Of a stretch of 64,000 nt of DNA, positions 4,604 through 64,000 are shown piece after piece. The translations under genes and the position numbers were made by a program. Below the pieces are notes generated by a model. That model saw nothing but the letters and a program-made list of their open reading frames with translations, was not told where the DNA came from and searched no databases. Origin of the DNA: a virus. The stretch covers positions 82,743 to 146,742 of IMG/VR virus record IMGVR_UViG_3300028800_000062, one strand, 5' to 3'. The first letter of the stretch is position 1, and each line of letters opens with the position of its first letter.

Positions 4604-6307
4604 ATGATTACCAAAAGGTTGATTGCTTTCGTGCTGCTGGCTGGCGGGTTGTTCGGCCAACAGCCGATCAAGAGAAACATGATCTGCGTGGCGGCCAGCG
4701 GGTCGGGCACTGCTTATGCCTGTAACATCGCATCGGCTCCTTCTGCGTATACCCTGAGTGAACGTTATCTGTTCAAAGCGGATGTGGCCAACACCGGCGC
4801 TGCGACTATTTCCTTCAACGGTATTGGCGCAGTACCGATCGTGAAGCTGGTGGGTGGGGTCGCCACCAATCTGGCCGCCGGGGATATCCAACTCGGCGAA
4901 TGGGTTAGTGTGATCTATGACAACACCGGCAGTCCGGTAATGCAGAAGCAGTCCATTCCGCAGGTTGTCGCGGACTGGAATGCCGCTTCCGGGCTGGCGC
5001 AAATCCTCAACAAGCCTACTATCCCAACCGGCGCTCCCAGCACCTGGCCCAGCTTCGCTGGTGTGGCAACATCCGGTAGCTACTCCGACTTGTCGAACAA
5101 GCCGACTGTGCCTGCAGCAGCGAGCACCACACCTGTAATGAATGGAACCGCAGCGATTGGATCCGCGGCAACCTACGCGAAAGCCGATCACGTTCACCCT
5201 ACTGATACTTCCAGGCAGGCCACCATCACCGGAGCTCCCGGGACCTGGCCTAGTGCCTTTGCACCGGTTGCTCCCACGGTATCGACGCTGGGCGGAATCA
5301 ACGCAAAGGATTGTTCCGTAGGTGGCCAGGTCATGCAGAAAGTCAACACGGATGGCAGTGTGACCTGTGTCAACCAAACTGGCGGAGGAATGGCCGACCC
5401 TGGTTCAAACGGCCTGTTGAAGCGCACGGGCATCAACACTACAGCAGTCGCTATAGACGGACTGGGTGGCGATTACGTGTCGGCCGCCTCGGTCAATAAC
5501 GGCACTTTGCCCATGAGCATTCTGAGCCTGCTGGTGGCCAATGGCATCACTGCCACCGGTAACATTTACGCCAACAGCACCAGTCTCGTAGCAGGTTGTG
5601 TGGTGCTCTCCGATTCCAACGCGGTGCACGATATGGGACTGTGCGCCCCGAGTTCCGGATATTCAGGTTTCCTGAATCTTCCCACCGCCGCCGGCACTCT
5701 CAATCAGTTTCTGCTCAGTGACGGGAACGGGGGGCTCGTGTTCTCAGGCACGGCTCCGGCGGGAGCTGTAGTAGGTACCACGGACGCCCAGAACCTGAGC
5801 AATAAGGTCATCGATGGAGTGTCTGCGACCACGATGGCGTTCATGGATGCGACGTCTTCCATCCAGACCCAGTTGAATACCAAGTTCGCTACGGCGAATG
5901 CCGCCGCGGCTGCCACTCTAGGAGTTCCGATACCGCTAGGCTGTTCGGGATCGTCCACCGCTAATACAACCGGGGGTGTCACTTACCTCTGGCCCTCCGG
6001 AGGTACTTATAGCTGTGCTAGCGGCACAGCGCCTGTAGGCATCATGGGTATCCCGATGCCCTACAACTGCACAGTCAAGTCGATGTATGTCAAAGTCAGC
6101 GCAGCCCCTGCCACAGGCAGCGATGCGGTAACGTTGTACCACAACGGCACAGCGAGCGCAGTGACTTGTTCTATAGGCCCGGGTCTCTCTTGTAATGACA
6201 CGGCGCACAGCAGCGTGTTTTCCGCAGGTGACACTCTGGCGGTCGGTGTGGCTGTGCAGGCGTCGGATGCCATTGCAAATATCCGAGTTGGGGTTTCCTG
6301 CCAATGA
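4604..6307 (+). CDS. Phage tail fibre protein with N-terminal signal-like segment (567 aa)
   Basis: Residues 1-19 are a hydrophobic signal-like segment ending GLFGQ. Residues 60-115 carry the common fibre motif (TGAATISFNGIGAVPIVK, then AAGDI); residues 190-210 carry KADHVHPTDTSRQ, typical of phage tail-fibre repeats. The C-terminal 120 residues are a beta-rich head (LYHNGTASAVTCSIG). The role is host recognition. The stop overlaps the next start as ATGA. The shared regulatory motif lies 53 bases upstream of the start. Confidence 0.8.
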   Translation: MITKRLIAFVLLAGGLFGQQPIKRNMICVAASGSGTAYACNIASAPSAYTLSERYLFKADVANTGAATISFNGIGAVPIVKLVGGVATNLAAGDIQLGEWVSVIYDNTGSPVMQKQSIPQVVADWNAASGLAQILNKPTIPTGAPSTWPSFAGVATSGSYSDLSNKPTVPAAASTTPVMNGTAAIGSAATYAKADHVHPTDTSRQATITGAPGTWPSAFAPVAPTVSTLGGINAKDCSVGGQVMQKVNTDGSVTCVNQTGGGMADPGSNGLLKRTGINTTAVAIDGLGGDYVSAASVNNGTLPMSILSLLVANGITATGNIYANSTSLVAGCVVLSDSNAVHDMGLCAPSSGYSGFLNLPTAAGTLNQFLLSDGNGGLVFSGTAPAGAVVGTTDAQNLSNKVIDGVSATTMAFMDATSSIQTQLNTKFATANAAAAATLGVPIPLGCSGSSTANTTGGVTYLWPSGGTYSCASGTAPVGIMGIPMPYNCTVKSMYVKVSAAPATGSDAVTLYHNGTASAVTCSIGPGLSCNDTAHSSVFSAGDTLAVGVAVQASDAIANIRVGVSCQ

Positions 6308-47864: not shown

Positions 47865-49802
47865 CTACTTGGAAAAGCTGTAATTGAACAGATACGCCAG
47901 CGTGCAGTTGCGGTACTGCGGAGAGATCTTGTTCTTGTCCGTATGGAGTACGACACGCGTCCCCAGCAGAGGTCCGTCTTTAGTATCCTGGATCTTGTAG
48001 TTGGGAAAAGCCAACTCTAGGGAAATGCGGATCGAAGCCCAGAAAGGCAGCCCGCGGCCGCCGGTGGTCACATATCCAGGTCCGCCTGGCCCGGAAGGCC
48101 CGGTCTTCATACGGGTCTGATTGATCCAGATCACGTTGGCCCGTTTGGCTACATTTCGGCGGAGAAACGCCGAGAGCATCTTACTAACCCCGCCTAGGCG
48201 GCCTTCTTCTCCGGCGTCTTTCTCCAGGTCGGCCTTACTTTCCAATGCCGCTACGGAGTCGACCAGAATCACGTCGAACAGCTGACTCAACTGCCGCAGA
48301 GTTTCCAGGATCGCCTCAGCCGGCATCGTCGTTTCGGCATAGCGCACCATGAAGACCGCAGTCTTCAAAGGATCCGTCTGGCTGTCGGTAATGATTCCAA
48401 TCTGATGCAGGTAGTCAGTCGTAATGGTCCGTTCGAGATCGAAGATCGCCGTTCGAAACCCTTGTGCCTGAGCAGAGCGGATCATCTCCAAACCCAAGCT
48501 CGTGTTATGCGTAACCACATAGTTATCTGTTATATACATATGTGATGGATGGCTGACTTTGATGCAGCGCATTTCTTCTACACCGTCGGCTTCAACGGAG
48601 ACTATCGACAATCTTGGCGTATTCACCTTGTTCAGGTTTACTCTCGATCTCTTGCGGCCCAAACCTAACACGTCTCCGATGTTCTTCATGATCACGCAGA
48701 CACGATAGGACTTCTTGCCACTCCGCTGCTTTCCGTTATAGGTATATTTCGTGATCCTTGGTCCGTGAACAGTAGCCATACCGCCCAACGATCTCACGAG
48801 TTCCTCTGTGTCACGCGCCAATTGTAAGCTCGACGTACAGAACTGAACGGCTCCTTTCGCCGTGGCGGTTCCATCTGTGTCTAATAATCCTTTCAACAGC
48901 GACTGTCTGCTACTCTTGTCAGCCAGGAGATATTCTTTCGGAATCCACTTTTCTTCCGAACGCTTACCTAACAGGTGCAGATCTTCTAACACCTGTGCTA
49001 CGGGATTGGCGGATGGGTACCCCTTGGAAGTTCTCGTTGATACTGTTCGAGCGACGTTATAGCAGTACTTGCTGGTTTGATGGAGTCCGCATCCGTATTC
49101 CTTTAACAAACCATTCATTCGGTTCACTAATTCCGGATCAGCTGTTGTGTACCCTGGAGTTCCATGGTCGCTCATCCCACCATCACCCAACATCAGACCG
49201 AGAAGTTCCGGAGACAAAGGAAGTGCGTCCGTACACCCAAAATCGCCAGAGACAGTAGGAATAGAAAGTCTCTTACGATTGGCGGCCACTTGAATATCTG
49301 CCATGATTTCATAGGTGTTCATCAACTGGTAATCCAGTTTCATGCGATGCCACCACACGTGGTTCTTTTTGATCGGCCACAGATGTTCACCGCAGCATCG
49401 GACAGTACGACCGTCGCTGAAGGTGATCTTCCAAACCCTCCGCATTCCCTGTGGATAAATGGCCTCTACTGTAGATTCTGCCCCATCTACAGATGCCAAT
49501 GGATCACCGATCTGAACGTCCCCTATAGTTGTCCACCCGCTGGGAGTTTTAAGCTTGGCGCTCAATGGTTGCGCTTTTCCAACCTCCGGTTGCTTGCTGA
49601 AGATTTCGATATCCCGTCCCCGGGGAATGCCGCCATTCTCCGTACGCAGGATATGGTCCAACTGCGGAAACCCGGTCGAGATGCACTCCACAGTCATGTC
49701 TTCGCAATCTTCGGCCAGCTTCACAATGGTTAACTTACGTTCCACCAACAGCTTACGCAGTTCATCGGTCGCGTTGGTAATTGTTTGTTCTTTCTTCGCC
49801 AT
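47865..49802 (-). CDS. recA: RecA recombinase precursor containing an intein (645 aa before splicing)
   Basis: N-extein 1-76 ends QPEVGK and the C-extein resumes TSLGLEMI, together the P-loop; the first P-loop Gly is replaced. Other RecA signs: AIFDLERTITTDYLHQIGI, DVILVDSVAALESKADLE (Walker B) and WINQTRMKTG with TTGGRGLPFWASIRI (L2 region). Spliced length to the amber stop is 288 aa, shorter than usual because the C-terminal domain lies beyond TAG at 47865-47867. It pairs homologous strands in phage recombination. Confidence 0.9.
   Translation of the reverse strand: MAKKEQTITNATDELRKLLVERKLTIVKLAEDCEDMTVECISTGFPQLDHILRTENGGIPRGRDIEIFSKQPEVGKAQPLSAKLKTPSGWTTIGDVQIGDPLASVDGAESTVEAIYPQGMRRVWKITFSDGRTVRCCGEHLWPIKKNHVWWHRMKLDYQLMNTYEIMADIQVAANRKRLSIPTVSGDFGCTDALPLSPELLGLMLGDGGMSDHGTPGYTTADPELVNRMNGLLKEYGCGLHQTSKYCYNVARTVSTRTSKGYPSANPVAQVLEDLHLLGKRSEEKWIPKEYLLADKSSRQSLLKGLLDTDGTATAKGAVQFCTSSLQLARDTEELVRSLGGMATVHGPRITKYTYNGKQRSGKKSYRVCVIMKNIGDVLGLGRKRSRVNLNKVNTPRLSIVSVEADGVEEMRCIKVSHPSHMYITDNYVVTHNTSLGLEMIRSAQAQGFRTAIFDLERTITTDYLHQIGIITDSQTDPLKTAVFMVRYAETTMPAEAILETLRQLSQLFDVILVDSVAALESKADLEKDAGEEGRLGGVSKMLSAFLRRNVAKRANVIWINQTRMKTGPSGPGGPGYVTTGGRGLPFWASIRISLELAFPNYKIQDTKDGPLLGTRVVLHTDKNKISPQYRNCTLAYLFNYSFSK
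48504..49574 (-). other. Class 3 mini-protein-splicing intein with LAGLIDADG endonuclease (357 aa)
   Basis: The intein begins with Ala (AQPLSAKLKTPSGWTTIGDV) and ends VVTHN before +1 Thr. It shows the class 3 triplet: Trp66 after block B His64 (EHLW), Cys337 in block F (RCIKV), Thr355 in block G. Two endonuclease blocks, LLGLMLGDGG (124-133) and LLKGLLDTDG (226-235), keep both acidic residues, so homing may still work. Insertion between K and T of the P-loop is the site used by phage-type helicase inteins. The DNA here is more AT-rich than its surroundings. Confidence 0.85.
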
Positions 49803-54660: not shown

Positions 54661-54719
54661 CGCTTTCCCTTGTGGTGAGCCTTCAGATAGTGCACAGATA
54701 CAAAGCCGTAAGCCAACAT
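54657..54719 (-). CDS. Tiny peptide with HKGKR tail (20 aa)
   Basis: ATG at 54719 overlaps the upstream stop (TGATG) and the stop overlaps the next start (ATGA). It ends LKAHHKGKR, close to LKPRHKGKR at the end of the 53-aa gene at 55513; the DNA around both starts is similar, so this may be a duplicated coupling segment that carries the ribosome site. Confidence 0.35.
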   Translation of the reverse strand: MLAYGFVSVHYLKAHHKGKR

Positions 54720-55516
54720 CACATTCTCCAGTCTGTAACCGGACCGATCTGTTCGTCGGCGAGAATCGCTTTCTGGATATCGGCCAAGGATAGGCCTACC
54801 TTGAACGTGTGACCGGTCTCCCGCTCCACCTGAACGTACTCTTCGAGCAGGTCAGGCCGCTGTTTGCCGGCCAGCTTCAATGCGGCCACCGGGGCGAAGA
54901 TACAGAAACTGCAGCTGAGCCTGGGCATGCCAACATCGTAGGCGTAGTGATGCGGAACTCCGCTCTTGCGGATGTCCGACCAGACTTCTTCTACGGGCCA
55001 TTGGTGAATCGCCAGCCAGTCCCAGACCTCTCGGCGGCCATTGCTGGCGCGCTGGTTCAGCTGGTAGGGTAGCTTCTTCGCCCGCGCCGGCGACTCCTCG
55101 GCCCGCATCCCCATACAGTTCAGGATCCGGATCGGTCGATTGCCCCCCAACTCCGTGGTCAGCTTGGTCATTACACGCAGGATGGGCCCGCGTTTGAAAT
55201 CGCTGGTACAGTAGCGCTGTTTGCTGCTGGGCCACTTGCCGCGGCGACGTACGGACTCCAGCAGATCGCCACCGATACGCTTTACGACTTCCAGGCTTAA
55301 TCCGTAATGCTCTGCCTGCTTGCCGGCGAGCTCCGGACAACCGGGCCATTCTATTTTGCCTAAATCTGCGTGGACCGCGACAAGACGTCCGGCCTCTACG
55401 CCGGCTTCCTTGCAGTGCTGCACAACATACCGAAGAATCGTTTGCGAGTCTTTGCCGCTCGAAGTATTGACCAGAATCCAGTCAAAACTGCAAAGATCGG
55501 GAATCATTTCACTCAT
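54719..55516 (-). CDS. PAPS-reductase family / DndC-like ATP pyrophosphatase (265 aa)
   Basis: Start at 55516 (MSEMIPDLCSFDWILVN). The PP-loop SSGKDS at about 19-24 binds ATP; residues 105-120 (SSKQRYCTSDFKRGP) and RLSCSFCIFAP hold Cys residues placed as in PAPS reductases and the phosphorothioation enzyme DndC. It may adenylate or thiolate a substrate. No other dnd gene is seen here, so DNA modification is only one possibility. Coupled by ATGA to the zinc-ribbon gene upstream. Confidence 0.75.
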   Translation of the reverse strand: MSEMIPDLCSFDWILVNTSSGKDSQTILRYVVQHCKEAGVEAGRLVAVHADLGKIEWPGCPELAGKQAEHYGLSLEVVKRIGGDLLESVRRRGKWPSSKQRYCTSDFKRGPILRVMTKLTTELGGNRPIRILNCMGMRAEESPARAKKLPYQLNQRASNGRREVWDWLAIHQWPVEEVWSDIRKSGVPHHYAYDVGMPRLSCSFCIFAPVAALKLAGKQRPDLLEEYVQVERETGHTFKVGLSLADIQKAILADEQIGPVTDWRM

Positions 55517-55674
55517 CGCTTCCCTTTGTGCCGGGGCTTCAAGTAGCGGACCGGCACTTTGTCTTGTAACTGTTGCAGATGTTTCCGATCGTCTAGGGCC
55601 TTCTGGCACGCATAACAGCGCACCGGTCGGCCCCAGACGTTTAGTTCACGCGAACAATCCGCGCACCTGGCCAC
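55513..55674 (-). CDS. Small zinc-ribbon protein (53 aa)
   Basis: The start is a GTG at 55674, four bases after the AAA+ gene, with GGGAG upstream. ARCADCSRELNVWGRPVRCY with the following AC makes two CxxC pairs. The C-terminal KPRHKGKR is followed by ATGA coupling to the PAPS-reductase-like gene, hinting that the two act together. Confidence 0.55.
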   Translation of the reverse strand: MARCADCSRELNVWGRPVRCYACQKALDDRKHLQQLQDKVPVRYLKPRHKGKR

Positions 55675-55677
55675 GGA

Positions 55678-57843
55678 TTACTCCCGCTCGTAGCTGACCT
55701 CGCCGAGATTGGCGGTTTGGTGGGATTCCTTCAGACCGTTCAAGCCTACGTTACGAACTTTCAACGCACGCTCTTTCCAGTCATCCGGACAGTACTTCAT
55801 GTTATTCACGAAGAGCAGGGACAGGTCAATCTGGAAGTCCACTTCACCGGTGTTGGGCTGCACGGCATCCATAGCCGCGTCCCAGTCAGGCTGGGTGATC
55901 ACCGGCTTCTCGTTGATCTCCAGCAGTTGGCTGTTGATCGCCTGCTGATCGGTCCAACTCAGGTTCTCCCATCTCTCGGCCAGAGTACTGCCGACTTTCT
56001 GCTCGGCGTACTTCTTAGCCAGGACGGTGTTGACCAGATCCTCTTCGTTCCGGTCGACATAATTGCCGACGGACTCCTTCAGGACCGATTCGATCTCCGC
56101 TCCAGTCCAGATGCGCGTATCGTTCAGCAGCCGGCCCAGACCTGCTGCATCGGAATGCACGGTCTCCGCCAGCTTCTTCACGAAGGTAACCTGCTTGCGG
56201 ATGCACAACGCCTTCAGAATGGCCAGGCGGCCTTTGGCGTCGCCCTTTGCCGGCGGCAATGCCGGAATCATAGCGTCGAAGCGGCCGTTGCGGATCAGCG
56301 CGGCGTCCAGCAGATCCGGACGATTCGTGGCGGAAATCACCACGACTTTGCCAATCCTGCCCTGATCGCTTAGGAAAGTCATCAGGGACTGAATGACTCT
56401 CTGCGTAGTCCCGGAATCGCCGCTGGCGCCGCGGCCGCCGGCGGTCACGAAGTCCAGCTCGTCGAGGAACAACACGCAAGGAGCGGCACTCTCCACCGCG
56501 GAGAAGAACAGGCGCGTATTGCGCTCCGTGTCTCCCACCAGGCCACCGAAGAGTTTGCCCAGGTTGCCAGACAGGAAGTTCATCTTGAGTACTTTGGCGA
56601 GCGCCAGCGCGATCTGAGATTTCCCCGTTCCGGGAGGTCCGGTCAGGATAAACCCGGCCGCGCAGGTCCGCTTGTCGTTCCGGCGCAGCGGGCTGACGAT
56701 CCGGCGATAGAACGCTTCCTTGATATTCTGATGTCCGCCGATCACCTCGAAGCCGAACTCCGGCTCGACGAAATCGACCAGGCCACCGAAGGTCTGCTCA
56801 ATGGCCTTCCGCTTCCGGCCGGCAATCATCGGGATATCGATCGAAGTATCGTCCTGCCAGCTGGCGCGCACGATCTGCTCCATCTGCCTCAGATTCAACC
56901 CGGCCGACTGATTGACCATCACCCTAGCATCCACGCCAGAGGCAAAGTTGACCGAATTACGCTTCTTGCCGCCGACGATTTCCTGCTTCTCCGCCGGCAA
57001 CTTCGACAGGCTGGTCATGAAGTTGTTCATCCACACTTCACGAGCTTTCACATCCGGCCGGCGAATACGCACCGCCAGAATACCGGAGTCTCCGCCGCGA
57101 ATAGTTTCATGCACATCGTCCAGGTTGGGCGTCAGGATCATGATGCGGCAGCGCGTTCCAATGGCCATATCCTGCGCCCAGTTATAAACGTAAGCGACCG
57201 GATCCCGATCCGCGGACAGTTGCGCAATGGGCGCCGAAGGAAACAGGAAGTTGCCGTTGAAGAAGCACATGGTGAACCAGCCCGGCTTGTTCATCTGCTT
57301 AGCTTCCTTGTAAGCGTTGAAAGCGAAGTTCAAGGTGACCATCACTTCCATGATGTTGGGTCCTGGATTCAACAAGGTATCCAACTTCTTTTCGCTCATG
57401 CCGATCTGGCCGGCGTACCAGGTGAGAACATCCACCCACTGCTGCCGGCTCTCATCGTCCACGAACTTCAGGCCTTCGTTGATCGTGTAGTAGGCGAACA
57501 CCCGCCCCGGCGGTACACTGAGTTTCTTGCCCTGCATCTTGGGTTGATGCGCCAGCCAGTTCGTATCGAACACGGTGGCAAGCAGCATCTTCATGTCGCC
57601 GCGGTTGCCGGTCGTATCCGGGTAGTCGGTGATGTTGTCGTGCACCACGAAGATATGCGCCGAAGCTGCCAGGTATGCCGCATGGCATTCTTCCACCCAG
57701 TACGGAATCTTGTGCACGCTCGTCACGGCGTCTACCGGTGCCAAGGAGGTCACTGCCTGCTTCGCTGCCGTATTCTTGGCCTTTTCATTGGCCGCATCCA
57801 ACGCCAGTTCCAAATCAGCGAAAGTCGTATCTGCTGCGCTCAT
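55678..57843 (-). CDS. AAA+ ATPase, Ycf46/FtsH-clade type (721 aa)
   Basis: The C-terminal half (about 385-600) is a full AAA module: LTGPPGTGKSQ (Walker A, about 400-408), CVLFLDELDFV (Walker B), SATNRPDLLDAALIRNGRFD (sensor 1 and SRH with arginine finger). The N-terminal half (40-250) looks like a degenerate AAA domain without Walker A, as in cyanobacterial Ycf46. A DUF1257 and a DUF2997 protein are encoded nearby, a combination seen in bacteria. Probably a remodelling ATPase; the substrate is unknown. Confidence 0.8.
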   Translation of the reverse strand: MSAADTTFADLELALDAANEKAKNTAAKQAVTSLAPVDAVTSVHKIPYWVEECHAAYLAASAHIFVVHDNITDYPDTTGNRGDMKMLLATVFDTNWLAHQPKMQGKKLSVPPGRVFAYYTINEGLKFVDDESRQQWVDVLTWYAGQIGMSEKKLDTLLNPGPNIMEVMVTLNFAFNAYKEAKQMNKPGWFTMCFFNGNFLFPSAPIAQLSADRDPVAYVYNWAQDMAIGTRCRIMILTPNLDDVHETIRGGDSGILAVRIRRPDVKAREVWMNNFMTSLSKLPAEKQEIVGGKKRNSVNFASGVDARVMVNQSAGLNLRQMEQIVRASWQDDTSIDIPMIAGRKRKAIEQTFGGLVDFVEPEFGFEVIGGHQNIKEAFYRRIVSPLRRNDKRTCAAGFILTGPPGTGKSQIALALAKVLKMNFLSGNLGKLFGGLVGDTERNTRLFFSAVESAAPCVLFLDELDFVTAGGRGASGDSGTTQRVIQSLMTFLSDQGRIGKVVVISATNRPDLLDAALIRNGRFDAMIPALPPAKGDAKGRLAILKALCIRKQVTFVKKLAETVHSDAAGLGRLLNDTRIWTGAEIESVLKESVGNYVDRNEEDLVNTVLAKKYAEQKVGSTLAERWENLSWTDQQAINSQLLEINEKPVITQPDWDAAMDAVQPNTGEVDFQIDLSLLFVNNMKYCPDDWKERALKVRNVGLNGLKESHQTANLGEVSYERE

Positions 57844-58130
57844 TACTGTTCCTTTTTACCCTCGGTACTGAGAGGCCCTAGGACCTCCACGTTGATACCA
57901 TACAAGTCAGCCGGACCGTTGGTCACCGGCATGGTCGCCAGGATCTGTTCATCGCTCAAATAACTGATCATGTATTTGGTGACGGCTTCCTTCTTCTGCT
58001 CGGGATCGGCCAGGTCATAACGCTCGGCAAACCTCTGCCATTCCGGGTCCTGTTCCAACCGCTCCCAATCCATCTCCAGGGAGCCGCTAATAGAAAACCG
58101 AACCTTAATCAAGTCGCTCAAATCGCGCAT
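57843..58130 (-). CDS. Hypothetical protein (95 aa)
   Basis: Acidic, helical (MDWERLEQDPEWQRFAERYD); short beta N-terminus (KVRFSISGSL). Overlaps the AAA+ start as TAATG, so the two may form a complex. Unknown. Confidence 0.55.
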   Translation of the reverse strand: MRDLSDLIKVRFSISGSLEMDWERLEQDPEWQRFAERYDLADPEQKKEAVTKYMISYLSDEQILATMPVTNGPADLYGINVEVLGPLSTEGKKEQ

Positions 58131-58418
58131 TTACTTAGTCTCCCGAATGTGGTCGCGTAACTGGTCCACACTATACAGCTTGTTAACCCACAAAACACCC
58201 TGGACAAAGGCCAGCCAGCGATCAAGCTTGCCCGAATCCGACTTGCCTGATATCAGCCAGCGCTTAATCTGCAATAGCATGAACCATGCATGGTTCAAGT
58301 TCTGGCGCGCATCTCCCGCGCACCCTTCCTTGGACCCCGAATAAATACTATCAGGTAACAGATCTTCCCGGTCGCGCAGACAGTTGAGATACATCTCAAT
58401 CAGTTCGAGGCGTGTCAT
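58131..58418 (-). CDS. Helical hypothetical protein (95 aa)
   Basis: ATG at 58418 with gagg ten bases upstream; a TTG at 58424 is the alternative. All-helical (ARQNLNHAWFMLLQIKRWLI). Adjacent to the 95-aa gene without a gap. Unknown. Confidence 0.5.
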   Translation of the reverse strand: MTRLELIEMYLNCLRDREDLLPDSIYSGSKEGCAGDARQNLNHAWFMLLQIKRWLISGKSDSGKLDRWLAFVQGVLWVNKLYSVDQLRDHIRETK

Positions 58419-58420
58419 AC

Positions 58421-59023
58421 TCAAATGCCCTCGGGAGGAAATCCGGTGACCTGCACCAGGCCGTCCCCGTCGATCTGCATCTCGAACTCCTGCGACGCGA
58501 AGTCGGCATAGGTGTACCGATTACTGAACAGGACCAGCTCCTGGTTACGGGACGAGCACAACGGACGCGAGTCATCCGCCTGATGCTGGTTGTAGCGACC
58601 CATAACAGCGAAATCCAGATCCCGTTTGATCATCTGCCACCACTTCTGTCTCAATGTGTCCGAAGACGGCAGGCCCGCCGTGAAATAATCTCCAAGTTCG
58701 AGCTCCCGTAAGGTATAACCGGTATACATCCCAACCGAGAAACCGTCGAACTTGGTACGGCGCCACAGATGAAACAACAGACCGCCCAAATCGAAAGCCT
58801 GGTGCATTGGTTCGCCGCCGGAGAGTGTTACACCTTGGGTACCGGCAATATCCACCAGTTGGTTGGCAAGGTCCGCGTCATAAACCTGCAGGCCTCCCGT
58901 AAAACTATGGGTATCCTGGTTCCAGCAGCCTGGACAGGCCAACTGGCATCCTTTCACCCAGACCACCGAACGGTCGCCGGGCCCATTCACCTTGCTATGC
59001 TCAATGACTGCGTGCAGGTTCAT
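58421..59023 (-). CDS. Radical-SAM activase, NrdG-like (200 aa)
   Basis: GCQLACPGCW at residues 25-34 is the Cx3Cx2C cluster; VTLSGGEPMHQAF is the GGE SAM motif. Length and the early motif match anaerobic ribonucleotide reductase activase and related single-domain enzymes. No glycyl-radical partner is in the window, so the target is unknown. ATG at 59023 overlaps the upstream stop (ATGA). Its place inside the AAA/DUF1257 cluster suggests a shared task. Confidence 0.8.
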   Translation of the reverse strand: MNLHAVIEHSKVNGPGDRSVVWVKGCQLACPGCWNQDTHSFTGGLQVYDADLANQLVDIAGTQGVTLSGGEPMHQAFDLGGLLFHLWRRTKFDGFSVGMYTGYTLRELELGDYFTAGLPSSDTLRQKWWQMIKRDLDFAVMGRYNQHQADDSRPLCSSRNQELVLFSNRYTYADFASQEFEMQIDGDGLVQVTGFPPEGI

Positions 59024-59220
59024 TTCTTTACCACTTTCAGATCGTAGAATGTGATCAGGCGACAACTCTGACAATAGAGGCCGTATTGCCCGCGGCCTTT
59101 CGGATAGTGGGCATCGATCGCCCGATTAGGATCCAGCGGAACATGACACTCAAAACAACCAGCCAGCGCCGCCTCAACGTGCGACGCATACTGTGGAAAC
59201 TTCCGCGGATCAGGTACCAT
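59020..59220 (-). CDS. Small zinc-ribbon protein (66 aa)
   Basis: AGCFECHVPL and LYCQSCRLI supply two CxxC pairs around DPNRAIDAHYPKGRGQYG. ATG at 59220 overlaps the upstream stop by one base. Unknown. Confidence 0.55.
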   Translation of the reverse strand: MVPDPRKFPQYASHVEAALAGCFECHVPLDPNRAIDAHYPKGRGQYGLYCQSCRLITFYDLKVVKK

Positions 59221-59483
59221 CACACGCCCCATAACTTCCTGGTTACCCAAGTGGCTGCCAGAGAACCAGAGGCGCCGCCCAGGACATAACCGGCCATCGC
59301 TGCCGGCGAGTCGGCCTGCGCCACCTGCTTGATCAGGATGAACCCCAGCGCAGCACAAGCCAGGTCCGATACAATCAGATGCCGGTACCTGGCCTGCGCC
59401 ACGGCGCGGTAGTTCCATGCGACTACCGCGTAGTTCAACGCCTGGGCGAAGAAGAACAACAGGAAGATGACAACCGACCGCAC
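59220..59483 (-). CDS. Small three-helix membrane protein (87 aa)
   Basis: GTG start overlapping the upstream stop as TAGTG. Three hydrophobic segments (VVIFLLFFFAQALNYAVVAW, SDLACAALGFILI, GYVLGGASGSLAATWVT). Small membrane proteins of this kind occur in large phages; a holin role is possible but unsupported. Confidence 0.55.
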   Translation of the reverse strand: MRSVVIFLLFFFAQALNYAVVAWNYRAVAQARYRHLIVSDLACAALGFILIKQVAQADSPAAMAGYVLGGASGSLAATWVTRKLWGV

Positions 59484-59911
59484 TACGCCTTAGCCTGTGC
59501 GCGCGCAAAGCGCACAATAGTCTTCGGCCTTCCCAGGTTGTCTTTGGTTACTTCCTGAGACGTCACGGTGAAGCCGCGCTTCTCGGCCGCGCCGATTCCG
59601 CGACGCACCGAGTACGCCTGTTTGACCTTGTTCAACCACTGCTCATTGTGGTGCCCGCGGTCATACTCACTGATGATCGCCTGGAACGTCCCATTGGCCT
59701 GCTTTTTGAAGCCAATGTCGTTGGCTGCCCCGTTGATCTGATTGCGAGGCACCACGATTTCCGCCGTCTCCGGACGTTTCTTGCCGACATAGTCGTACAA
59801 CGGCTGCGCTTTGTCGTGCACGATCGCCTTATAGCCGCTAACGTCCTGCAGCGCCTGCACCGTGCAGGCCTGGTCCTCGAACTGCGTCGCATACTGATGA
59901 TAAGCACTCAT
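59483..59911 (-). CDS. DUF1257 / Ycf35-like protein (142 aa)
   Basis: The pattern matches DUF1257: CTVQALQDVSGYKAIVHD, YVGKKRPETAEIVVPRN, NDIGFKKQANGTFQAIISEY, WLNKVKQAYSVRRG, then a C-terminal beta strand. Ycf35 of plastids and cyanobacteria is the name-giving member; function is not known. Encoded with an AAA+ ATPase and DUF2997, as in other genomes. Confidence 0.7.
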   Translation of the reverse strand: MSAYHQYATQFEDQACTVQALQDVSGYKAIVHDKAQPLYDYVGKKRPETAEIVVPRNQINGAANDIGFKKQANGTFQAIISEYDRGHHNEQWLNKVKQAYSVRRGIGAAEKRGFTVTSQEVTKDNLGRPKTIVRFARAQAKA

Positions 59912-60292
59912 CTAATTCACCTTTCCTTTCTTCTCGTCCACTACGGTCAAACCGCGGTAGGTAGCCACTTCCATCTGCAGATCGACGATGATCTTGTGCA
60001 GCTCGTATAAGCTCCGGGGAGACAGCAGAAAGCGCGTATGGCAGTCTCTGCAATTGATCGCCACAATGGTCTTTTCGAGACTCTGCAGCTGCTCTCCCAG
60101 GGAGATGCCCCCGGAGAATTCCTCCAGGAAGGCGCGCCGAAACACACCTTCCCACAGAAGGTCGACTCCTCCGCATCCGGGGCACTTGCCGGCGTCCTGA
60201 ACCATGTCGGGATGCAGCGAAACCTCCCGCAGGACTTCGCCTTCGATCTCCATGCGGCCCAGTTCTACGGGCTTATCGATTGGATCTGACAT
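59912..60292 (-). CDS. Zinc-ribbon protein (126 aa)
   Basis: GKCPGCGGVDLLWEGV and INCRDCHTRFLLS form a split four-Cys ribbon joined by a helical insert (LGEQLQSLEKTIVAI). It lies between DUF2997 and DUF1257 genes. Unknown. Confidence 0.55.
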   Translation of the reverse strand: MSDPIDKPVELGRMEIEGEVLREVSLHPDMVQDAGKCPGCGGVDLLWEGVFRRAFLEEFSGGISLGEQLQSLEKTIVAINCRDCHTRFLLSPRSLYELHKIIVDLQMEVATYRGLTVVDEKKGKVN

Positions 60293-60473
60293 TCTCCCTG
60301 ACCACAGCGTTATTACGCTGATAATATTCCGGCTTGAACCCTGTGTCGGCCGGCTTTCCCAGCTCCTCGTCGAATTCCTGCAGAACCTTCTGGCAACTGG
60401 GACCGGAACCGTTTTCTACGTCTACCGTAATCTTGCCCTCGAAATCGATCTCGATCATAATCTCGTCTTGCAT
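60273..60473 (-). CDS. DUF2997-like small protein (66 aa)
   Basis: MIEIDFEGKITVDVENGSGP followed by SCQKVLQEFDEELG fits DUF2997 (beta hairpin, Cys, helix). In other genomes this family is encoded next to DUF1257 and AAA+ genes. It overlaps the zinc-ribbon gene by 20 bases. Confidence 0.65.
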   Translation of the reverse strand: MQDEIMIEIDFEGKITVDVENGSGPSCQKVLQEFDEELGKPADTGFKPEYYQRNNAVVRENVRSNR

Positions 60474-60490: not shown

Positions 60491-61108
60491 CTACAAATTA
60501 GCTATTCCCGCCAAATAACCGAACGTGCTCCCACTCCAGTACTGATTATGAAGCTGGATCACCCTGGGGCCTCCCGGAATCACATCCGGAGACTCATAGG
60601 TATACTGGTGCGCGAGACAGTACTCCAGTATCTTGTGTGCGCCCTCATCTTTCCACTTAGGCCGGATCACGTTGTCCCATTCATACTCCGTAACGAAACC
60701 CTGGGACCGTGCCCAACGAATCAAGCGGCGCACATACTGAACCGAATCGTCCTTCGGCGACAGGATCGCCGATTGGGAGTCACACCGCTCCTCTGCATTA
60801 TGCTCGCCGATCGACCAGTGATACTGTTCAAACAGAACCTGGGCCCCGTTGAGTGTATAACTGGCGTACATCGGCGATACATGATGCAGGTCACGCACCC
60901 CTTCGCACGCCGCCACGGTGTCGCATTCTATCCAACGCTGTGATAACTCCTCCTCCACCGGCCGGTCGGTTTCAAAAAAGGCATGCATCACGATGCCACA
61001 CCGTGCACAGACATGACCGGAGATCAACTTGCGATCTACCGGCTTGCCTCCGACTCCACGCCACGCTCGCGGCGTGAAGAAGATCCGGCCTTTCTTCAGT
61101 CGAATCAT
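60491..61108 (-). CDS. Hypothetical protein (205 aa)
   Basis: HVCARCGIVMH near the N-terminus may bind zinc; later parts are alpha/beta with many aromatics (VQYVRRLIRWARSQGFVTEY). Coupled to the helicase by ATGA. No family recognised. Confidence 0.5.
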   Translation of the reverse strand: MIRLKKGRIFFTPRAWRGVGGKPVDRKLISGHVCARCGIVMHAFFETDRPVEEELSQRWIECDTVAACEGVRDLHHVSPMYASYTLNGAQVLFEQYHWSIGEHNAEERCDSQSAILSPKDDSVQYVRRLIRWARSQGFVTEYEWDNVIRPKWKDEGAHKILEYCLAHQYTYESPDVIPGGPRVIQLHNQYWSGSTFGYLAGIANL

Positions 61109-63954
61109 GCGACTCTCTCCTCCCCTGCCTGGAACATATCGAGTTCCGGCAAAGTCAACAACTCCTGCATGCCGAGCTGTTGCAGATACTGCGTCAATTT
61201 ATCCTGGCTGGCCATCACCTGTTGAATAAACGACACGGCGTCGAAGGTCATGGCTCTCTTGCTGACGATCTTGCGATCGAGCGCCAACTCCTGTGCGTGC
61301 ATCTTGGCGTAGAAAGTGTTATAGATCACCAGATCCAAGCTATTAGTCAGCAAGGTCATGTAGATCTCACACGTCCGATCCAGGCTACTGGGCTTCAGGA
61401 TACGGCTCCAGGCCTGTAACATCGTCGATGGATTCCACAGCAGATCCACGAGAATACAGGTGTTACAAAGGGAACCGCCGGCCAGGTCTGTACCTAGCCC
61501 GATCGAGCGCGGCCCAGCGATGAACAACTTATAACTGGGGTCATACTCGAAGCGGTCAAACGCCTCATAGCGTTTGTCTTTGTTCCACGCGGGATCAAAC
61601 AGGATCGGATTAAACTCCGACAGGTCCTGACTGATAAGCTTCCGCATCTGCGGATAATCGGACAACACCAGGACCTTCTCGTCGTTCACGCATTTAGTGA
61701 GACAGAGATTGTGAATCGACTCCATCTTGCCGCCGCCGCGCTTGCCGTTATAAATGGGCGGCTTGCCCATCTTCGCGGCCAGCTCGTTGACGTAATCCGG
61801 AACCGTTGCAATCTTCTTCATGCGCGACATCTGGCTGATGATGAAGCTGGTATTGATCTCCTGGATAGCCTCCTTGTCGACGCTCTTCGCCTCCAGCTGT
61901 TTCTGGTACTCCTGCCACTTGAGCTGGAACTCTTCCAGGCTCTTTACCAGCAGAACCGCCTGCACTGGATCCGGATCGCACAGGACCGGCTGCGGAGTCG
62001 CCTGCGGCACCTTCATACCGGCCGCCTCCATCGACTGTTTCACCATTTCGTCGTCATAACTGCGCCGGATCATCACCGGAGCCATTAATTCATGAAACTT
62101 ACGAGGATTCTTCAATCCGGGAAGGCGTTTGCGATACGAGTTGTCTCCAGACTTGGTAACGGTATAAGTACGCACGAAGTCTTCCGCAAAAGCCTGCGGG
62201 CCCTTGTAGGGAACCTGCTTGTTATTGCGGCCGAACATTCGCACCATGGGCCAATAAGCCTCGGCCGGAGAATTCGGCATCAACGTGCCGGTCAGACCGC
62301 TGCAGGCTCGGATATTGTGCAGAGAGAGGGCCGCGGCGGCCGTGGCCGTGCTGCCATCCTTCATTACATGAATCTCGTCGAAGATGGCTCCCCGCCAGCG
62401 ATTCCGCACCCGCCGGGATAAGGGAGGCGTCCAGGTGACCATCGGGATCTTCACCTGCATGGTGGTCTTACCAACATCAAGCTGGCGAACCAGCACCCTC
62501 GGGCCATGAAGCTGAAATGGTACATGGGAGGGTATTTTCGCCACCGACTTCCGCAACCAGTCTACATAGCCACCTTTATGCTTGATGGTTTCCTCTGAAG
62601 ACCAGGCGGCGCCTTTCTCCGGTGCCGATTCTTCCCAGGTACATTCCCGATTCCGGCACAAGTAGCCGCCGCTGGCAATCCAAAGCGGCAGGCCTTCCGC
62701 GTCTTGCACCAGTTGCTCCAAGTTCTGTCCACAGTGTGGGCATACCTTGACAGAGTCCCCGTACACCTCCGATTTCTCTTTCTTCTGCTTCTTAAGCGTG
62801 TTATAGGAGATGAGCTCCATCCAGGGTTGCGGGCCTTCTAAATCCTTATAGTCCCCAATCACGCGATAGTCGGAGATTCCCAGGATGTCCAACTCCCGAG
62901 TAATGAACGGCAGCACGTTCTTAGGGCACACGAAAACATTCCGTTTCGTGCCGCGTAAGTACAGGAAGGCCAAAGCTTCCCGGCTCTTGCCCATGCGCAT
63001 TGGCTTGCCGTTGAAGTAGGCACGCTTGACCGCAGCTTGGGCCGCATCGAACTTAGTGTGCTCGTACAGTTGCCACCCAGTAGCATCCAGTTTCGCCCGA
63101 TTCGCCGCAACTAAGCCGGCATATACCTCGGGGACGCACGTCGCCGGATTGTATAAAGCCTCGGTACTCTCGTCGACATTGAAATAGTCCTCGAACTTGC
63201 CGTTGACCAGGCTACTGGTAATCACACGGGCACTCAAGGACGACTTTCCGTGCAACTGATGAATCGTTAAGGTGTCTTCCGTTCCTTCCGACTCGGATCC
63301 CAGCTTCTTATCCCCAATGACATACGTATAGCCGGAATGCGCTGGAGGATTAAACGTGGCACTGTCCGTCACAGTCTGGATGCATCTCAACACGACGCCT
63401 TCATCGACTCGCTCGAACAAAGGACGATCGTCGACTACTTCCGGCAGCAGCATGGGCGTCTTCTGTCTCTGCGCCCGGCGATACGCCTTAGGCACCCAAC
63501 CAGCCAGGCTGGGAGTAGCAATCACTTCGAACCCTTCGTATTGCAGGTGATCCCATAGCACAGAGTCTTCGATCGACTGCGCGAAGACTTCCTCAATAGG
63601 AAACAGCATATGCGTGGGATCATGCAACTTGTTACCCACATTGTCCAGCTTCAATAAGTGAGGAACCGGAAATGCAGTCATCGTGGCGGAAGGCCCGAAC
63701 TGCATATACAGGATCATGTTATGGAAGGCCTGCGCATCGGCCGGACTGGCCAACACACCTTTCGATCCCAACTTGGACAGGATCAGCGTATTGGGTTTCG
63801 AGACCAGTGACTGCACATACTGCAGTTCCCGGTAATTCGGGAGCACAGGCGACACTTCAACGGCGGGCGGAGTTACCAGAACCGGAGACTCTTCTTCCAA
63901 CTCCAGAGGGATAACGAACTCCCCTGCGGTAAATAACGAATAGCTTTCAAACAT
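61105..63954 (-). CDS. SNF2/SF2-type helicase with internal zinc finger (949 aa)
   Basis: The ATG at 63954 is used; a TTG at 63963 overlaps the upstream stop. Motif I NGKPMRMGKSREAL (about 320), motif II AIFDEIHVMKDG (about 525), motif III GLTGTLMPN, and motifs V-VI LGTDLAGGSLCN and QAWSRILKPS (about 848). A zinc finger (CPHCGQ, CRNREC) lies between I and II. The first 250 residues are phage-specific. It would translocate on DNA in replication or recombination. Confidence 0.8.
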   Translation of the reverse strand: MFESYSLFTAGEFVIPLELEEESPVLVTPPAVEVSPVLPNYRELQYVQSLVSKPNTLILSKLGSKGVLASPADAQAFHNMILYMQFGPSATMTAFPVPHLLKLDNVGNKLHDPTHMLFPIEEVFAQSIEDSVLWDHLQYEGFEVIATPSLAGWVPKAYRRAQRQKTPMLLPEVVDDRPLFERVDEGVVLRCIQTVTDSATFNPPAHSGYTYVIGDKKLGSESEGTEDTLTIHQLHGKSSLSARVITSSLVNGKFEDYFNVDESTEALYNPATCVPEVYAGLVAANRAKLDATGWQLYEHTKFDAAQAAVKRAYFNGKPMRMGKSREALAFLYLRGTKRNVFVCPKNVLPFITRELDILGISDYRVIGDYKDLEGPQPWMELISYNTLKKQKKEKSEVYGDSVKVCPHCGQNLEQLVQDAEGLPLWIASGGYLCRNRECTWEESAPEKGAAWSSEETIKHKGGYVDWLRKSVAKIPSHVPFQLHGPRVLVRQLDVGKTTMQVKIPMVTWTPPLSRRVRNRWRGAIFDEIHVMKDGSTATAAAALSLHNIRACSGLTGTLMPNSPAEAYWPMVRMFGRNNKQVPYKGPQAFAEDFVRTYTVTKSGDNSYRKRLPGLKNPRKFHELMAPVMIRRSYDDEMVKQSMEAAGMKVPQATPQPVLCDPDPVQAVLLVKSLEEFQLKWQEYQKQLEAKSVDKEAIQEINTSFIISQMSRMKKIATVPDYVNELAAKMGKPPIYNGKRGGGKMESIHNLCLTKCVNDEKVLVLSDYPQMRKLISQDLSEFNPILFDPAWNKDKRYEAFDRFEYDPSYKLFIAGPRSIGLGTDLAGGSLCNTCILVDLLWNPSTMLQAWSRILKPSSLDRTCEIYMTLLTNSLDLVIYNTFYAKMHAQELALDRKIVSKRAMTFDAVSFIQQVMASQDKLTQYLQQLGMQELLTLPELDMFQAGEERVA

Positions 63955-63959
63955 GGCAC

Positions 63960-64000
63960 TCAATCGATGTTGACGTTGGGCAGGAACTTGATATTGAAGG
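63960..64000 (-). CDS. C-terminal end of an upstream gene, truncated by the window
   Basis: Twelve codons (FNIKFLPNVNID) and the stop TGA at 63960-63962 are in the window. It lies just before the helicase gene on the same strand. Nothing more can be said. Confidence 0.4.
   Translation of the reverse strand, partial: FNIKFLPNVNID

Follow-up and report, generated by a model that had tools for sequence, protein, structure and literature searches.

DUF1257 (Ycf35-like) and DUF2997 are small proteins found mainly in cyanobacteria, and DUF1257 also occurs in plastids. We know of no function for Ycf35 and Ycf46, which are retained in the plastid genomes of red algae and their relatives. Among red algal plastids, the distribution of ycf35 and ycf46 is reported to track habitat (PMC5940233). 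A cyanobacterial operon, duf2997-ycf35-fed7 ('cluster g'), has been listed, whose ferredoxin Fed7 is required when iron is limiting and under oxidative or metal stress, conditions to which fed7 mutants are sensitive; in a two-hybrid assay, moreover, Fed7 bound a DnaJ co-chaperone (PMC4284462). A survey of AAA+ conflict systems notes a radical S-adenosylmethionine (SAM) enzyme whose presumed substrate is the small product of a neighbouring gene, and ubiquitin-like conjugation in a related variant (PMC7159879). Here we describe a phage locus in which an AAA+ ATPase, DUF1257, DUF2997 and an activase-type radical SAM protein are encoded together. It lies in a window of 64,000 nucleotides, the whole stretch of DNA analysed, which corresponds to bases 82743-146742 of the possibly incomplete, 146,742-base virus record IMGVR_UViG_3300028800_000062. 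What is new is the combination of all four parts in a phage, the cyanobacterial operon and AAA+ systems that include a radical SAM protein being already known separately; no description of the four-gene set was found in the literature searched, where few papers name DUF1257 or DUF2997.

We propose, with a probability of roughly 0.45, that the locus is a mobile and conserved remodelling module of chaperone type, in which an AAA+ motor works with DUF1257, DUF2997 and the radical SAM protein on a putative target complex. Its genes belong to a minus-strand run of nine that extends from position 60473 to 55678 and is coupled throughout, adjacent genes abutting or overlapping by 1-20 nucleotides (Table 1). 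A preliminary description of this DNA had assigned the four families from the letters alone, and the profile searches confirm it with scores above the Pfam cut-offs. DUF1257 reaches 52.8 bits (cut-off 22.2) over domain positions 9-97 of 103 and was recovered again in an independent six-frame search of the genome. DUF2997 reaches 40.9 bits (cut-off 24.1) and keeps the invariant columns of its family, which are three glycines and one cysteine (G13, G24, C27 and G39 in 86 non-redundant sequences). The radical SAM protein has the cluster motif CX3CX2C (CQLACPGC) and GGEP, and thus belongs to the superfamily. Its gene starts at ATG 59023 and not at TTG 59074, which falls within the preceding gene.

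The set is not confined to this phage. A scan of genome contigs yielded 79 loci, mostly from Nostocales, the others including Obscuribacterales, Chloroflexota and Acidobacteriota, and an iterated-profile scan found AAA, DUF1257, DUF2997 and radical SAM genes together at non-cyanobacterial loci among them. In even samples of each phylum, DUF1257 is present in 98 of 194 cyanobacterial-phylum genomes, 11 of 297 Acidobacteriota and 3 of 301 Chloroflexota, the last two counts being lower bounds because Pfam misses diverged copies (as in genomes G004 and G006). Ten of the 11 acidobacterial genomes with DUF1257 also carry DUF2997, which occurs in 14 of the 297 (hypergeometric P 8.6e-15, a value that overstates independence because the genomes are related). 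At 13 acidobacterial loci, some of which share one genome, the AAA gene is never more than 0.31 kb from DUF1257, and DUF2997 and a radical SAM gene are each found within 1.1 kb at 12 of them. The module of Acidobacteriota and Chloroflexota has all four core genes adjacent, as in the phage, and includes a coiled-coil gene.

Cassettes on Nostoc and Trichormus plasmids encode a 354-residue protein, one or two DUF1257 proteins, DUF2997, usually a protein of about 85 residues, an AAA protein and a WGR protein. The Nostoc plasmid cassette resembles the phage locus in carrying AAA, DUF1257 (up to 45% identical) and DUF2997 on a mobile element, but it has no linked radical SAM gene, includes the WGR protein, and its AAA protein is only 23-25% identical overall. 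The linked radical SAM gene is also missing from the cyanobacterial chromosomal versions, which pair with Fed7. In 'cluster g', DUF2997 adjoins DUF1257 in the same order as in the phage and an iron-sulphur partner is present; however, that partner is a ferredoxin, the AAA gene is at another locus, and there is no zinc-ribbon or membrane gene. Chromosomal pairs of a Ycf46-type AAA gene and DUF1257 in cyanobacteria show the same linkage of AAA to a DUF1257 copy as the phage, and some cyanobacteria encode a related radical SAM protein elsewhere in the genome. The phage DUF1257 is 49% identical to a Nostocaceae copy, and in a tree of the family it lies near Nostocaceae and Obscuribacterales copies, without strong support. 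Since unrelated bacteria share the four-gene set, and plasmids and other phages share it without the radical SAM gene, we consider the module a real conserved system.

Phage relatives were recovered only by using alignments and other family members as queries; single-sequence searches of viral contigs and phages with the DUF1257 and AAA proteins of the window gave nothing useful or general AAA proteins. DUF1257 is encoded by the Prochlorococcus phages P-SSM2, P-SSM5 and P-SSM7 and by marine relatives. In P-SSM2 and P-SSM7, the two checked, DUF2997 overlaps it, and in P-SSM7 a ferredoxin gene is nearby. The cyanophage clusters T4-GC 174 and T4-GC 175, annotated as hypothetical, are DUF2997 and DUF1257, respectively (L198 3802-4381, L199 3832-4384). 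The Tunturiibacter phage Tunturi_3, cultured on an acidobacterium, encodes AAA, DUF1257 and DUF2997 consecutively (gp103-101), like the window phage, but has no radical SAM gene nearby and the motifs of its AAA protein are in swapped order. In gp103 (PP885686; L197 6329-7924) a Walker B-like VIIWYDEIEKG precedes a Walker A-like ALGVPGVSKS, and BLAST matches to locus L011 come in pieces of swapped order; as read from the sequence, its AAA domain appears to be internally rearranged. Among the phages found in this analysis, only the window phage has a radical SAM gene alongside the set.

In bacteria, two neighbourhoods of the module recur, a PRTRC-like E1-E2-JAB cassette or HSP70, GrpE-like and WD40 genes. 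The first is that of the Acidobacteriota, where genes for a coiled-coil protein, DUF2958 and, unlike in the phage, a ThiF-type E1, Prok-JAB and Prok-E2_D stand alongside. These proteins resemble PRTRC ThiF, A and B with scores below the NCBIfam cut-offs, and PRTRC A, B and ThiF were not found in the subset of phage proteins scanned. The ThiF E1, Prok-E2_D, JAB and DUF2958 genes directly adjoin the four-gene module at L164-L175 and L208. The second neighbourhood is found in Obscuribacterales, other Chloroflexota and cyanobacteria, with HSP70, WD40/HEAT proteins and a GrpE-like protein (a marginal match, E 0.0097). HSP70 and WD40 genes lie near the module at L023, L160, L161 and L163 and in cyanobacteria, and the chloroflexotal locus L207 is an HSP70-DUF2997-radical SAM operon. 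Module-type radical SAM genes at L207 and at the cyanobacterial loci L204 and L206 lie beside HSP70, coiled-coil and other AAA+ genes, ClpB-like and MoxR-like by eye.

The radical SAM protein had been described as an NrdG-like activase, and a genuine NrdG, activating the host's anaerobic ribonucleotide reductase and standing beside DUF1257, DUF2997 and AAA by chance, has to be considered. It shares the motifs [ND]GPGxR, CX3CX2C and GGEP with the NrdG and PflA activases, its best curated match is NrdG, and phages commonly carry similar radical SAM genes (873 records), in many cases with an NrdG annotation. That match, however, scores 78.2 bits against an equivalog cut-off of 126.1; the phage protein misses every other activase equivalog cut-off as well, and its module relatives also stay below that of NrdG. 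No NrdD and no Gly_radical protein was found in the possibly incomplete 146.7-kb phage record, and of 18 host genomes in which the module includes this radical SAM protein, 17 show neither, the sole exception, G006, having both; the two profiles gave the expected positives in controls (E. coli and others). Because these partners are missing from the phage and from 17 of the 18 hosts, the protein is an orphan of activase type and not an ordinary glycyl-radical-enzyme activase as the preliminary description had it. Its place in the module, in contrast, is borne out: the same subfamily stands beside DUF1257 and DUF2997 in other phyla, and a tree, in which true NrdG rows were not included, groups it with module proteins from Chloroflexota, Obscuribacterales and one acidobacterium; a split with support of 100/99 separates these from a second group. 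We therefore regard a genuine NrdG as very improbable. The tree group of the phage protein has a common C-terminal extension, ..RY..D....E..I...G....G..P. In the second group, from Acidobacteriota and Chloroflexota, the first 45 or so residues are DUF2997-like, without the cysteine (E-values as low as 5e-5 with hmmsearch against a small set, and 3e-7 with hhalign for a single pair), which ties DUF2997 to the radical SAM protein physically or by descent. A resemblance of the radical SAM C-terminus to DUF2997 was not significant (E 0.03).

Two further explanations concern what the set is for. As an auxiliary stress module, DUF2997, DUF1257 and AAA might protect or repair iron-sulphur or redox proteins of the infected host, much as the Fed7 operon may when iron is limiting and under oxidative stress, the radical SAM protein being just one of several interchangeable iron-sulphur partners. 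The stress sensitivity of fed7 mutants (PMC4284462), the retention of DUF2997-DUF1257 by cyanophages, with the ferredoxin gene of P-SSM7 close by, and the presence of an iron-sulphur partner in both lineages are in line with this. Yet the stress phenotypes are those of fed7 and not of ycf35 or duf2997, no iron-sulphur partner is annotated near the plasmid copies and the repaired protein is only hypothetical, so that we think this explanation rather unlikely. Alternatively, the locus could serve conflict, be it defence, counter-defence or exclusion of mobile elements, with a chaperone/AAA+ switch and a radical-modified small protein as effector. Carriage by plasmids and phages would fit, as would the PRTRC-like cassette in Acidobacteriota and the AAA+/vWA systems with a radical SAM protein or ubiquitin-like conjugation that have been proposed as conflict systems (PMC7159879). 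The FtsH ternary systems described there also combine an AAA+ machine with a radical SAM protein predicted to modify a small neighbour, but the phage module lacks vWA and FtsH proteins, and DUF1257 and DUF2997 are not named in that work. PADLOC returned no full-system match to the phage proteins: the AAA domain resembles IetA, in a match limited to that domain and far below the curated cut-off, and the radical SAM, DUF1257 and DUF2997 proteins match no model. The occurrence of DUF1257 in about half of the sampled cyanobacterial-phylum genomes and in plastids moreover indicates a housekeeping setting too, and we judge a conflict system unlikely.

The remodelling module that we favour could work as follows. 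The AAA+ ring would be the motor, with DUF1257 and DUF2997 as its adaptor. DUF2997, with its invariant cysteine and three invariant glycines, would dock the radical SAM protein to the ATPase or be a peptide that this enzyme modifies. Using ATP, the ATPase would then act on the target complex, together with HSP70 wherever that chaperone is present. The iron-sulphur role would in cyanobacteria fall to Fed7, a [4Fe-4S] ferredoxin encoded after duf2997-ycf35, and the phage would carry a streamlined copy that relies on the HSP70 of its host. The phage may benefit through support of an iron-sulphur complex or a large complex of host or phage, or in conflict. A more specific version, which we hold to be rather unlikely, makes DUF2997 the substrate: a protein of 65 residues whose glycine/cysteine core is radical-modified and which is then handled by the AAA+/DUF1257 machine, with or without HSP70. 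If true, this would be a new type of system, common to bacteria and phages, that is built on a radical-modified small protein.

Several results weigh against the remodelling module. The Nostoc plasmids and several phages have DUF1257 and DUF2997, with or without AAA, in the absence of a linked radical SAM gene, and thus radical SAM chemistry cannot be the whole function, although some cyanobacteria, as noted above, encode a related protein at another place in the genome. The phage radical SAM protein has no DUF2997-like N-terminal segment, unlike that of the Acidobacteriota/Chloroflexota module, and the model of DUF2997 is poor (predicted local distance difference test, pLDDT, 59). The survey of host partners rests on two profiles, with genome completeness not stated, and divergent glycyl-radical enzymes could escape it. 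No HSP70 was found in the phage; since the bacterial module is, in addition, embedded among HSP70, GrpE-like and WD40 or E1-E2-JAB genes, the 'self-contained' system of the preliminary description is doubtful. Finally, the phage AAA protein sits on a very long branch with weak placement, and its residues 1-345 match no module AAA protein even at E 10. 'Ycf46-like', as it had been called, applies at most to the AAA domain, the N-terminus of about 345 residues being not detectably Ycf46 at the sequence level.

A compact module that unites a Ycf35 protein, a similar ATPase and a radical enzyme without its usual target makes an old question about plastid genes experimentally approachable. Its genes are small and can be co-expressed, bacterial copies lie near HSP70 or ubiquitin-like conjugation genes, and one phage carrier is in culture.

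The phage AAA protein scores 111 bits with a cyanobacterial module AAA protein, 93 with another phage AAA protein and 90 with FtsH, the best match found being that at L211 (115 bits). A likeness of its N-terminus to the ClpB-type AAA protein at L204, noted by eye, gave no significant match. In the Chloroflexota module proteins read, Walker B is altered, unlike in the phage. The AAA proteins at L038, L041 and L042 have G[VLM]SEFEK in place of DE[IL]EK, and ATP hydrolysis may be changed there.

Two features of the DUF1257 family are nearly invariant, the initial MS and a D-I-G-F motif. An AlphaFold2 model of the phage protein (pLDDT 93, predicted template modelling score 0.82) has strands and helices, one of them long, and found no match below E 0.1 in the PDB; the best matches, Bcs1 AAA proteins (E 0.12, template modelling score 0.28), were treated as noise. 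DUF2997 or a DUF2997-like segment forms the C-terminus of longer proteins adjoining AAA genes at L209 (4692-5447) and L211 (near 5000-5430). A DUF1257-DUF2997 fusion at L209 was considered, and its DUF1257 half was dropped for want of support from profile hidden Markov models.

Table 1. Genes of the coupled run, in order of transcription (positions in the window)
Feature	Position	Strand	Evidence and remarks
DUF2997 protein, 66 residues	60273-60473	-	Heads the coupled run; Pfam PF11211, E 1.9e-10; Cys27 invariant
Zinc-ribbon-like protein, 126 residues	59912-60292	-	CPGC and CRDC motifs; 20-nucleotide overlap with DUF2997; from sequence
DUF1257 (Ycf35-like) protein, 142 residues	59483-59911	-	Pfam PF06868, E 5.1e-14; long 'YGYxGDxRxETAEIVV' class
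Hydrophobic, probably membrane protein, 87 residues	59220-59483	-	GTG start overlaps DUF1257 stop; from sequence
Zinc-ribbon-like protein, 66 residues	59020-59220	-	Two CX2C pairs; from sequence
Activase-type radical SAM protein, 200 residues	58421-59023	-	Pfam Fer4_12 (PF13353), E 2.7e-25; motifs NGPGxR..GCQLACPGCWNQDTH..GGEP
phrog_7775 protein, 97 residues	58131-58424	-	Phage family, PHROG E 2.7e-8
95-residue protein	57843-58130	-	Directly before AAA gene; from sequence
AAA+ ATPase, 721 residues	55678-57843	-	PF00004, E 1.1e-29; Walker A GPPGTGKS and Walker B LFLDELD, both intact

The remaining genes of the run are less well defined. The zinc ribbons of the preliminary description stand as CX2C motifs in the 126- and 66-residue proteins, without a useful family match (none at a useful E-value in Pfam or PHROG for the former; for the latter, no family search covered its correct frame). 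Its small membrane protein is indeed hydrophobic, with no Pfam or PHROG match either. For the 95-residue protein, Pfam and PHROG gave no relative, and homology to the small protein encoded ahead of AAA on the plasmids (18-25% identity, with large gaps) was not accepted. No clear promoter candidate for the nine genes emerged, the count of consensus sites being near chance.

Outside the run, genes for a baseplate wedge and a tail fibre are present in the virus record. A PAPS-reductase-domain protein (54719-55609; E 7.8e-9) is encoded downstream of the AAA gene, and a SNF2/helicase-like protein of 952 residues (61105-63963; weak Pfam matches) upstream of the module. Different parts of a 645-residue protein (47865-49802) match primase/helicase, UvsX-like and terminase phage families, and it is perhaps a composite protein.

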